From: an uncultured Acidimicrobiales bacterium
Lineage (GTDB): Bacteria > Actinomycetota > Acidimicrobiia > Acidimicrobiales > SZUA-35
DNA: 62,159 bases
Assembly: GCA_938009905.1 (NCBI GenBank)
Contig: CALLGK010000021.1
Span: forward strand, 1-62,159
Reading direction: 5' to 3'
A program made the translations under genes and the position numbers. This document shows positions 49,845-54,204 of this stretch, piece by piece. Positions within the stretch are counted from its first letter, which is position 1. The number at the start of each line of letters is the position of its first letter. Below the pieces are notes generated by a model. It saw only the letters and a list, made by a program, of their open reading frames with translations. It was not told the origin of the DNA and made no database searches.

Positions 49845-51107
49845 ATGGACCCCTCTGTCCTCAGTGCGACCGTTGCGCCCCTCGCGGGCCTCATCGACGA
49901 CGCGACAACCATGGTCGACGTCGGTTCCTTGCTTGACCGCGTCAGGCAAGAGCTCGACCGCTTCGAGCCGGTCGAACGCTCGATCGTCGTCCTCCTCGAG
50001 GGCGAAATTGCGCAGCAATGGACCCTGTCGAACGTAGCGAGGACAGTTGTTGCCGGGGAGTGGCTGATCCGGCCAGACGAGACCGTCGAGGGGCACTGTG
50101 CGCTTGAGGCTCTTGAATGTCGAATCCCGGCAGATCAGATTCGCCGACCGGCCTCCGACGGTGAGCCGTGGACACATGATCGACCGCTGGTGTCTGAGAT
50201 CGGCGACGAGTGCCACGAGTTGCTTGTCTTCCCGCTCTGCTCATCGAGAGGTGCGGTCGGGTCGTTCACGGTGCAGACCACCGCTCCACTGGCCGACTCA
50301 ATCGTTGCGGAGCTTCGCGCCATCGCCGCGATTGTCACGATGGTGCTCGAAAAGACAACAGCGTTGCGTGAGCTCGACGAACGTCAAGCGGCGCAGAGCC
50401 GGGTGAACACCGACCTCGCGGCAACGAACAGCGAACTGGAAACCGTGGCTCGGATGGCCTCGAGCGAACTGCATCAACCGCTTGGCCAGATTCGCAACTA
50501 CGCCAATCGCCTTGGCAACCTCGATGACGGTCTGACAGAGCGAGAGGCTGACTATCTCCAGCGGATCGTTGGTGCCAGCTCCCGCATGCAAACGCTCGTT
50601 GGCGACCTGCTCACGTTCTCGCGAGTCTCGACCGTCGACGACCCATCTGCAGCCGTCAGCTTGAACCAGGTCGTTGGCGAAGCGCTGATGGACCTCGAGT
50701 TGCTGATCTCTGACGCCGGTGGCGTCGTGACCGTTGACGAGTTGCCTGTTGTGGACGGAAACGCCACGCAGCTCCGCCAGCTCTTCCAGAACTTGATCGG
50801 TAACGCCATCAAGTATCGACGCAGTGACGTCGCCCCACGGGTCGCCGTCCGGTGCGTCGAGGCCGGTCCCGGTCTGGTCACGATTGAAGTCGAGGACAAT
50901 GGCATCGGCTTCGAGCAACGGTTTGTCGATCGCATCTTCAAGCCCTTCCAACGGCTGCACGGCCGCGGCGAGTTTGACGGCTCCGGCATCGGCCTTGCGG
51001 TCTGCCGTCGGATCGTTGAGCGCCACGGCGGCTCAATGGCGGCCCGATCAGTTCCCGGTGAAGGTTCGGTGTTCATCGTGACGTTCGAGACAGGGAGCAA
51101 CGCATGA
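49845..51107 (+). CDS. GAF-like/histidine-kinase protein with degenerate H-box
   Basis: HATPase N/G1/G2 boxes intact (NLIGNAIKY, DNGIGF, GSGIGLA); H-box region reads MASSELHQPLGQI. Confidence 0.85.
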   Translation: MDPSVLSATVAPLAGLIDDATTMVDVGSLLDRVRQELDRFEPVERSIVVLLEGEIAQQWTLSNVARTVVAGEWLIRPDETVEGHCALEALECRIPADQIRRPASDGEPWTHDRPLVSEIGDECHELLVFPLCSSRGAVGSFTVQTTAPLADSIVAELRAIAAIVTMVLEKTTALRELDERQAAQSRVNTDLAATNSELETVARMASSELHQPLGQIRNYANRLGNLDDGLTEREADYLQRIVGASSRMQTLVGDLLTFSRVSTVDDPSAAVSLNQVVGEALMDLELLISDAGGVVTVDELPVVDGNATQLRQLFQNLIGNAIKYRRSDVAPRVAVRCVEAGPGLVTIEVEDNGIGFEQRFVDRIFKPFQRLHGRGEFDGSGIGLAVCRRIVERHGGSMAARSVPGEGSVFIVTFETGSNA

Positions 51108-52378
51108 GCACGACCGAAAGCGACTTGGCTGCAAACGATCTGCGCGAGCTCAAAGACGTGACCGACATCGTCGAGATCGTCAACTCGCACACCGACGAGG
51201 ACGCACTCATTCACGCGGTGCTCGACAAGCTGCTCGACTATCAGATGGCTGCAACGGTCGTATTCCGGAGGCTCTCCGCCGATGGCGACTCGCTTGTGCC
51301 GGTGAGCTCTGTTGTTGGAGGGTCGAAGCTCGACGAGTTGCTGCAAACAACAGCGGTGCCCCTCGATTCCTTTGAAGGGCATGCCATCCGTGAGGATCAT
51401 GTGGTCTTGATTGACATCGAGACGTTTCCCCATATCAAACTCGACCGCACGTACCGGGAACTCGTGCTGCACTGCGCCGAGAATGGGTGCCGCGGGGCAC
51501 TCTTCTATCCGGTCCGATCGTCCGAGGCCCTTGGAACGTTGACGTTCTACGCCCTCGAAGACATCTCGCTCGACGAGCGCGGACTCGACATGTTCCACCG
51601 CGCCGCAAAACTCATGGCGTTCGGCATCGAGAAGTGCAGGCGAATCGCCTCGAAGCAGCACGTCGAGGAAGACCTGCGCTTGGCGAACGTGCGCCTCGAA
51701 AGCTCCAACAGAGATCTTCAGGACTTCGCCCATGTGGCATCGCACGATCTGCAGGAACCGCTGCGCAAGATCCGGACGTTCAGCGACCGCCTCAATGGTT
51801 CGGCCGCCGATCGGCTGTCGGACCAGAGCGCTGACGATCTCGACAAGATCCAGGCGGCTGCCGTTCGTATGCAGACGCTGATCGACGATCTGCTTGTGTA
51901 CTCACGAGTCGGCAACAGAATCGGAGACATGGTCGCGCTCGGACTGAACGCCGTCGTTGAAGAGGCGATGGTCGAGCGTCGAGCAGATCTCCGTCGACTG
52001 AATGGAACGTTTGAGGTTGAAGACCTTCCGGCGGCGATGGTTGATCAGCGCCAGATGGTGCAGTTCTTCTCGGCACTCATCTCGAACGCCGTGAAGTTCG
52101 CGTCTCCTGATCGGCCGCTCCATGTGCGCATCTCCGGCAAGCTCGAAGACGGTTGGGTCTCGATTGATGTCGAGGACAACGGCATCGGCTTTGAAGACAA
52201 GCACGCAGAACGGATCTTTGAGCCGTTTCGACGTCTGCACTCTCGGGCCGAGTACGAAGGCACCGGCATGGGTCTGGCCGTCGCGAAGCGCATCGCCACA
52301 CGCCACCACGGGGCCGTTCGTGCTCGTAGCGAGCTAGGGGTTGGTTCGACCTTCACGCTGTTGTTTCCAGCAACGTGA
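51104..52378 (+). CDS. GAF-like sensor histidine kinase
   Basis: VASHDLQEPLRKI canonical H-box; ALISNAVKF, DNGIGF, GTGMGLAV; 4-bp overlap with previous gene. Confidence 0.92.
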   Translation: MSTTESDLAANDLRELKDVTDIVEIVNSHTDEDALIHAVLDKLLDYQMAATVVFRRLSADGDSLVPVSSVVGGSKLDELLQTTAVPLDSFEGHAIREDHVVLIDIETFPHIKLDRTYRELVLHCAENGCRGALFYPVRSSEALGTLTFYALEDISLDERGLDMFHRAAKLMAFGIEKCRRIASKQHVEEDLRLANVRLESSNRDLQDFAHVASHDLQEPLRKIRTFSDRLNGSAADRLSDQSADDLDKIQAAAVRMQTLIDDLLVYSRVGNRIGDMVALGLNAVVEEAMVERRADLRRLNGTFEVEDLPAAMVDQRQMVQFFSALISNAVKFASPDRPLHVRISGKLEDGWVSIDVEDNGIGFEDKHAERIFEPFRRLHSRAEYEGTGMGLAVAKRIATRHHGAVRARSELGVGSTFTLLFPAT

Positions 52379-52391
52379 GCTTCTGGAGTTG

Positions 52392-52853
52392 CTAGCGCTG
52401 CTCGGCGGCGAGATCAACAAGCACGGCAGCCGCATGGCCCGCAGGGTCGTCAACTTCGTAGACCTTGGCCACGACCCCATCCGGGTTGATGAGAAAGCTG
52501 ACTCTCTTCGGGAAGTCTGAGAACGGGTCGTCGGCATCGCGCAGAACGCCATAGGCAGTGCCAACCGCTTTGTCTTCGTCGGAAAGCAAGGGGAACGGAA
52601 ACTCGACCGTTTCCTTGAATGCGGCGTTGTCGGCAGGGGAGTCAAACGACGCTCCGAGCACCTGACATCCGGCATCGATGAACTGCTGGGCCTGATCACG
52701 CAGGCCCTCTGCTTGCAGCGTTCAACCAGGCGTACTGGCTTTCGGATACCACCAGAACAGCACCCAGCTGCCTGCGTGGTCGCCGAGCGAGACGGTATTG
52801 CCCGCTTCATCGGAGAGCGAGAATGGTGCGGCCGGGCTGCCTTGTTCAATCAT
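52392..52853 (-). CDS. peroxiredoxin (BCP/AhpC-TSA type), predicted selenoprotein with UGA (Sec) at codon 44
   Basis: Reverse-strand translation MIEQGSPAAPFSLSDEAGNTVSLGDHAGSWVLFWWYPKASTPG-U-TLQAEGLRDQAQQFIDAGCQVLGASFDSPADNAAFKETVEFPFPLLSDEDKAVGTAYGVL...; UGA at 52722-52724 occupies the peroxidatic Cys position; the ORF list only shows the part after the UGA (52392-52661). Confidence 0.88.
52683..52718 (-). promoter_or_regulatory. putative bacterial SECIS element
   Basis: After UGA: ACG-CUGC-AAGCAGA-GGGCCUG-CGUGAU-CAGGCCC-A-GCAG; 7-bp perfect upper stem, 6-nt loop with G at position 2, loop begins 21 nt after the UGA. Confidence 0.75.
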
Positions 52854-52927
52854 CACGAACGAATCTAGCTCAGCGCCGCAACCGCTGGGTGTGCAAATGC
52901 GACGGTGATTCGAGGCATCATTTCACC

Positions 52928-53446
52928 GTGACGTTGTTCTTCGCCCTGCTGGCGTTCGGTGGCGCTGCGGTTGTCGTGCTGGCTCCCGTCGTGTCGTTTG
53001 CCATGCCAGGTTCGAGCACGGCCCGAGACATTCGGTCGTTCGGGTTAATCGGCGGGTTCGTTGCTGCGCTCGTGGCCACGCTCGGCAGCTTGTATCTCTC
53101 CGAAATCGTGGGCTACGCGCCGTGCCGCTTCTGCTGGTATCAGCGCTTCTTCATGTATCCGTCCGCCCTCGTGCTTGGCCTCTCGCTCTTGATGAAGAAG
53201 CCCAAGCTGGCGTGGCTCGCGGTGGCCATGTCGGTGATTGGGTTCTGCATCTCGGTCTACCACCGGCTCGAGCAGCAGTATCCAGACACGGTCGGCAGCT
53301 CATGTGCCGTCGATAATCCGTGTTGGGGCCGGTATGTCAACGAGTTCGGTTGGGTGACGATCCCAACAATGGCCGCGGTTGCGTTCGCTCTTGTGTTTAC
53401 TCTTGTGCCGTTGAGCCTTCGAGGCATGGCCGGCGAGAGCGAATAG
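52928..53446 (+). CDS. DsbB-like disulfide bond formation protein
   Basis: YAPCRFCWYQRFFMYPSALVLG and SSCAVDNPC with TM helices; GTG start 52928. Confidence 0.88.
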   Translation: MTLFFALLAFGGAAVVVLAPVVSFAMPGSSTARDIRSFGLIGGFVAALVATLGSLYLSEIVGYAPCRFCWYQRFFMYPSALVLGLSLLMKKPKLAWLAVAMSVIGFCISVYHRLEQQYPDTVGSSCAVDNPCWGRYVNEFGWVTIPTMAAVAFALVFTLVPLSLRGMAGESE

Positions 53447-53511: not shown

Positions 53512-54204
53512 ATGCCCCAGGCGCAGGTTCAAAAGATCAATGACGGCTCGGACTCCGGCGGCCGCTGGTTTCTGTTCGGCATCTTGGCGATTTTCGTCTT
53601 GGGTGCTGGTGCAATTGCCTTTGTTGCGACCAATCGCGAGTCGGCCACAAACATCACCAACATTCCGCGTGGTGGCGACGTTGAGGTCTCGGCCGACGTG
53701 TCGATCGATGGCACCCCGCTCCCGCCCATGCCGGGTAGCGGTGTGCTCGCCGACCCATCAACTGACCCAGCGGTGGGCACGATCGCACCGACTCTTGTCG
53801 GAACCGACTTCAACGGCGATCCGATCAGTATCGAGCCTGACGGTCGCCCGAAGGCCGTGTACTTCTTGGCCCACTGGTGCCCGGCCTGCCAGGCCGAGGT
53901 GCCATCTGTTGTCGAACTCATCGAGGCCGGAGCGGTACCGGCAGACATTGACTTGTACGGCGTGTCGACGTCGGCCGACGCGACTCGCGGCAACTACCCG
54001 CCCAACAACTGGCTTGCTCGAGAAGGCTGGACCCCGGCCATTATGCGGGATACCGCCGGCAGCGAGGCATTGCTCTCCTACGGCGCAGGCCCGTTCCCGT
54101 TCGTGGTCTACCTCGACGGTGAGAACCGCGTGCTTGCTCGTTCGTCCGGTGTGCTCGGGGAAGATCAGATCACGACGATCTGGGAAACCCTCGCCGCGGG
54201 CTGA
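53512..54204 (+). CDS. membrane-anchored thioredoxin-fold protein
   Basis: N-terminal TM; AVYFLAHWCPACQAEVPSVVELIE CxxC motif. Confidence 0.88.
   Translation: MPQAQVQKINDGSDSGGRWFLFGILAIFVLGAGAIAFVATNRESATNITNIPRGGDVEVSADVSIDGTPLPPMPGSGVLADPSTDPAVGTIAPTLVGTDFNGDPISIEPDGRPKAVYFLAHWCPACQAEVPSVVELIEAGAVPADIDLYGVSTSADATRGNYPPNNWLAREGWTPAIMRDTAGSEALLSYGAGPFPFVVYLDGENRVLARSSGVLGEDQITTIWETLAAG

Follow-up and report, generated by a model that had tools for sequence, protein, structure and literature searches.

Gene organization at the locus

The window, that is, the whole stretch of 62,159 nucleotides that was analysed, is contig 21 of a source genome that consists of 343 contigs and is 85% complete. 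A predicted selenocysteine (Sec)-containing peroxiredoxin (Prx) is encoded on its minus strand, and two redox genes lie on the divergent side:

52392..52853, minus strand: predicted Sec-peroxiredoxin gene, 153 aa + TAG, BCP/PrxQ-like, Sec at residue 44
52722..52724, minus strand: UGA codon predicted to be read as selenocysteine, at the peroxidatic position (WWYPKASTPG-U-T)
52688..52707, minus strand: predicted bacterial SECIS hairpin within the coding sequence, GGGCCTG-cgtgat-CAGGCCC, stem beginning 14 nt past the UGA
52823..53446, plus strand: DsbB-family membrane disulfide oxidoreductase (PF02600, E 2e-12), divergent from Prx
53512..54204, plus strand: membrane-anchored thioredoxin-like (Redoxin) protein with WCPAC (PF08534, E 3e-6), second gene on the divergent side

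The minus-strand frame opens with ATG at 52853-52851, passes through TGA at 52724-52722 and closes with TAG at 52394-52392, with no other stop between; translation reproduced to the base the single in-frame TGA from ATG 52853 to TAG 52392 that the first-pass annotation had described. The read-through product has 153 residues (MIEQGSPAAPFSLSDEAGNTVSLGDHAGSWVLFWWYPKASTPG-U-TLQAEGLRDQ...) and carries the active-site motif PxxxTxxC/U as P37-K-A-S-T41-P-G-U44. When the product was aligned to Xanthomonas PrxQ/BCP, the TGA stood opposite the peroxidatic Cys of YPKxxTPGC, exactly at the catalytic Cys where it had been placed. Mechanical ORF calling, as had also been noted, either splits the gene (52392-52661) or chooses another frame (52334-52849); the latter ORF was dropped, the Prx frame fully accounting for the region. 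Further read-through candidates from a scan of the window were set aside, as they look like alternative frames in which a Cys-like context is absent. No clear Shine-Dalgarno sequence was found ahead of the ATG at 52853, and Rfam at gathering scores gave no match in the whole window. The protein is predicted to be cytosolic, because a signal peptide is absent.

The true start of the DsbB-family gene probably lies near 52925, since most homologues begin aligning there. This gene adjoins Prx in all five same-genus genomes, and the thioredoxin-like gene is located upstream of Prx within the genus as well as at L030, L031, and L036, which belong to other genera of the same family. The head-to-head arrangement of Prx with both genes in the genus suggests, at most, that Prx and its redox neighbours share a redox duty. 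Two histidine kinases that resemble each other and lie in tandem (HisKA + HATPase; window 49845-52378, plus strand) are convergent with the Sec-Prx gene and adjoin it in two same-genus relatives as well.

Family assignment and comparison with known peroxiredoxins

The read-through product matches the AhpC-TSA domain over its full length (PF00578, E 1.9e-32, 112 bits) and likewise the NCBIfam model of BCP thiol peroxidase (NF006960, E 7.8e-32), in line with the initial assignment to the BCP type. The score against the latter, 110.3 bits, lies below the cut-off of 140, and on these profile matches the protein is BCP-like and is not filed as a BCP equivalog. The PrxU model (NF040737, 233 positions) gave 51.8 bits, below its cut-off of 270. 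The AlphaFold model (pLDDT 96) shows the thioredoxin fold of peroxiredoxins, with Bcp, PrxQ, and AhpE, a 1-Cys Prx, among its structural matches.

The protein shares its fold, the YPKxxTPG motif and its length with the thioredoxin-dependent thiol peroxidases BCP/PrxQ, while differing from them in that Sec would replace the peroxidatic Cys and that 41 of the 42 Sec forms collected here have no resolving Cys at +5. With PrxU, known from Eubacterium acidaminophilum and in homologues, it has in common the AhpC-TSA domain and Sec in T-P-G-U (TxxU); unlike PrxU, it is a 153-aa BCP/PrxQ-like form of Acidimicrobiales hosts, in which a second Cys is often absent. AhpE of Mycobacterium tuberculosis is a fold match (TM about 0.87 to the model), but its catalytic residue is Cys and its identity to the present protein is 28% in the structural alignment. 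AhpE is a 1-Cys enzyme, and an external thiol, for example mycothiol, resolves its catalytic residue (cf. the PDB 5id2 title); a single catalytic chalcogen and outside-thiol resolution might be features that the present protein shares with it.

The Sec-peroxiredoxin is an enzyme type already known, first shown in Eubacterium acidaminophilum (cited in PMC13188914). A 2016 survey counted 91 Sec-peroxiredoxins in 78 organisms (PMC5029168), and a 2026 review gives their motif as TxxU (PMC13188914). As the first-pass annotation stated, Sec takes the place of the peroxidatic Cys in known members.

Conservation of the UGA codon in Acidimicrobiales

The hosts of the homologues are Acidimicrobiales, the named records being uncultured Acidimicrobiales, Acidimicrobiaceae, Candidatus Microthrix-labelled, and MedAcidi-G1 assemblies. 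In 19 of 41 genomes (the source genome and 40 relatives) there is a close homologue with one TGA, and every homologue extracted from these 19 has the TGA at the identical catalytic codon. The 42 Sec forms extracted, window gene included, each have a single TGA at that codon. One match (G016 C392, L057) was left out of the set, because it is an ordinary BCP with Cys and the TGA listed for it is only the terminal stop. Sampling of 248 genomes from the order gave 41 with the TGA form, counted at E below 1e-30; SelA was found in 38 of these 41 as compared to 110 of the remaining 207 (Fisher p = 5e-7, a value that is indicative only, since related genomes are not independent). The three TGA-form genomes without a SelA match (G086, G215, G258) all have tRNA-Sec, and assembly gaps are therefore the likely cause of the missing SelA.

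Cys-containing homologues, whose comparison had been proposed at the first pass, have TGC at the same codon in relatives free of the machinery. G160 and G252 have TGC (Cys) there, with SelA, SelB, and tRNA-Sec matches absent, and G018, which has no SelA, combines TGC at the codon with a Cys at +5; G147 has the TGC form despite its Sec machinery. At L039 (G010:C39:13936-14394), a Ser codon stands at the catalytic position and the active-site motif is degraded; its genome contains SelA, SelB, and SelD, with no tRNA-Sec match. L039 would be a peroxiredoxin that has decayed or been repurposed, and it may represent a stage in losing the Sec trait.

Selenocysteine machinery of the source genome

The source genome had been expected to carry selA/selB/selC/selD, and SelA, SelB, SelD, and tRNA-Sec are all present. 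SelA is encoded at C186:4750-5901 (profile match in its own genome, 412 bits, above cut-off) and is directly followed on the same contig by SelB (573 aa, above cut-off), the two genes overlapping. The tRNA-Sec is on C188 (70 bits) and was called by ARAGORN as tRNA-SeC with the anticodon tca (UCA). SelD, on C135, has its own single UGA at the catalytic position, in the motif HGAGUACK. The UGA-containing SelD (L053 1283-2311, minus strand, G000:C135; HGAG-U-ACK) was also observed in most family relatives, and SelD is uninterrupted in several other members of the order.

A conserved hairpin downstream of the UGA

A bacterial SECIS is a hairpin located shortly after the UGA, with a G close to the beginning of its apical loop, and the hairpin of the window gene has this form. 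It folds at -14.1 kcal/mol, and only 3% of synonymous-codon shuffles fold as stably. Nearly all Sec forms have a hairpin 14 nt past the UGA, with a stem of about 7 bp and the motif C-G-U in the loop. Within the window's family (17 sequences), stem cells are paired in 95% with four double changes, and pairing drops to 56% when the partner is shifted by one base. A second group has a 7-nt loop (GGGGCTC-cgtgatc-GAGCCTC) with 95% pairing, and a few members (L073, L074, L078) have a 5-nt loop; the stem register shifts between groups, while the position at which the stem begins and the loop CGT codon are constant. The mean hairpin energy is -11.3 kcal/mol over the 42 Sec forms versus -2.8 over five non-Sec forms.

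The Arg codon at +8, which lies in the loop, is CGT in 42/42 Sec forms, whereas elsewhere in these genes only 21 of 282 Arg codons (7%) are CGT. In the five non-Sec homologues, position +8 is CGC, CGA or a codon for another residue, and every one of them has lost the hairpin. In single genes the hairpin is only moderately unusual (synonymous-codon shuffles, mean z -1.9 over 26 genes; L033 without excess), because the residues GLRDQA already favour pairing. The SECIS argument rests on the whole set, and codon choice is its strongest sign. Read from these sequences, the hairpin is a bacterial SECIS.

A very probable selenoprotein peroxiredoxin

Taken at the level of sequence, the gene almost certainly encodes a genuine selenoprotein peroxiredoxin of the BCP/PrxQ type; from this we infer Sec insertion at the UGA and peroxidase activity. 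The functional Sec codon postulated at the outset appears well supported by the machinery, the fixed TGA codon in homologues, and the conserved SECIS-like hairpin. The splitting of the gene by mechanical ORF calling would also be expected of a decaying pseudogene in which a Cys codon (TGC or TGT) had mutated to TGA, but the same TGA codon, with no other disruption, is kept in homologues with identities as low as 41%, the part past the TGA is conserved and in frame, the Sec machinery is present, and the hairpin is Sec-specific. Random stops or disruptions among homologues, which the first-pass annotation had named as the mark of a true pseudogene, were not seen, the TGA lying at one fixed codon in otherwise intact genes, and we consider decay highly improbable.

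The fragmentation of the assembly into 343 contigs, at 85% completeness, might be thought to invite a sequencing or assembly error, with TGC or TGT misread as TGA. Such a misreading, also raised at the first pass, is contradicted by separately assembled genomes, four of the same genus and others from many further genera, that carry the same TGA, and its probability is practically negligible. It is also conceivable that the UGA is read as a residue other than Sec, by near-cognate read-through or a changed code; we saw nothing that favours this, although the inserted residue is not deducible from translation alone. The presence of tRNA-Sec, SelA, SelB, and SelD speaks against it, as do the position at the catalytic Cys, with TGC there in machinery-free relatives, and the use of TGA as the ordinary terminal stop in several homologues of the Prx gene, which leaves only a very slim chance for a non-Sec reading.

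Proposed catalytic mechanism and reductant

In the proposed mechanism, SelB would bring Sec-tRNA(UCA) to the UGA at codon 44, its delivery directed by the hairpin starting 14 nt downstream, and the ribosome would put selenocysteine where the peroxidatic cysteine would be. The Sec selenolate would attack H2O2 or an organic peroxide to give a selenenic acid, which would then be reduced by an outside thiol (1-Sec mechanism). Outside-thiol reduction seems most likely because the +5 resolving Cys is absent and many members have no other Cys. Position +5 is Cys in 1 of 42 Sec forms and Glu49 in the window protein, which differs in this from 2-Cys BCP/PrxQ with their resolving Cys at +5, and in 19/42 other Cys are absent from the matched part. 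A 1-Sec mechanism with an outside reductant is thus, as far as sequence can indicate, fairly probable.

The same selenoprotein could instead use two residues, with Sec44 resolved by Cys63 in an intra- or intermolecular selenenylsulfide. A Cys at U+19 (C63) is found in 21 of the 42 Sec forms, including every form taken from the window's own family apart from the paralogue L056. However, the other half have Ala, Gly or Ile at U+19 and are often Cys-free, and the +19 Cys persists in the non-Sec homologues L039, where the catalytic residue is lost, and L041. As C63 also begins the core strand E63-69 in the predicted model, a structural role of this residue is as likely as a resolving one, and we regard the two-residue mechanism as rather unlikely.

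For the 1-Sec mechanism, the reductant might be mycothiol/mycoredoxin or thioredoxin. The genome has genes for an MshC-like ligase (419.7 bits for MshC vs 334.8 for cysS, below the curated MshC cut-off of 485) and mycoredoxin-like glutaredoxins with scores below curated cut-offs; a mycothiol route for the window Sec-peroxiredoxin appears plausible.

Other candidate selenoproteins

Other genes of the source genome also contain in-frame TGA codons. L093 (G000:C337:1500-3200, minus strand, match at contig 2322-2546) is membrane-anchored and mycoredoxin/glutaredoxin-like, with the UxxC motif DFYWRPG-U-VFCQRL; a CPFC paralogue, L095 (FYWRPGCPFC), is present in the same genome. L093 is probably another selenoprotein, a Sec-mycoredoxin. 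A second Sec-peroxiredoxin, L054 (G000:C18:6607-7041, minus strand), is BCP-like (YIKAKTPG-U-TLESQHFRD) and only about 35% identical to the window Prx, with the CGT-GAT codons downstream of the UGA kept. L055 (G000:C263:4644-4949, minus strand), peroxiredoxin-like with the UxxC motif RHIH-U-LPC, is a candidate third Prx-like selenoprotein.

A lineage-wide 1-Sec Prx that lacks a resolving thiol and acts in a mycothiol relay, with the membrane-anchored UxxC mycoredoxin-like candidate selenoprotein on C337 as its glutaredoxin partner, is a speculative and doubtful proposal. If true, Acidimicrobiales would have in this relay a parallel to the AhpE/mycoredoxin system that is based on selenium.

Significance

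Among open-licence papers, we found no account of Sec or selenoproteins in Acidimicrobiia, Acidimicrobiales or Ilumatobacter, and a lineage-wide Sec-Prx family of Acidimicrobiales seems not to have been described in these papers. These results indicate that largely uncultured Actinobacteria make selenoproteins hidden from standard gene calling, one of which probably carries peroxide defence. Relatives are split between Sec forms where the machinery is present and Cys forms where it is absent, which offers a natural experiment on Sec retention in peroxiredoxins. The same split informs how a SECIS within the coding region constrains codon choice, CGT being used in 42/42 Sec forms and in none of the non-Sec homologues examined.
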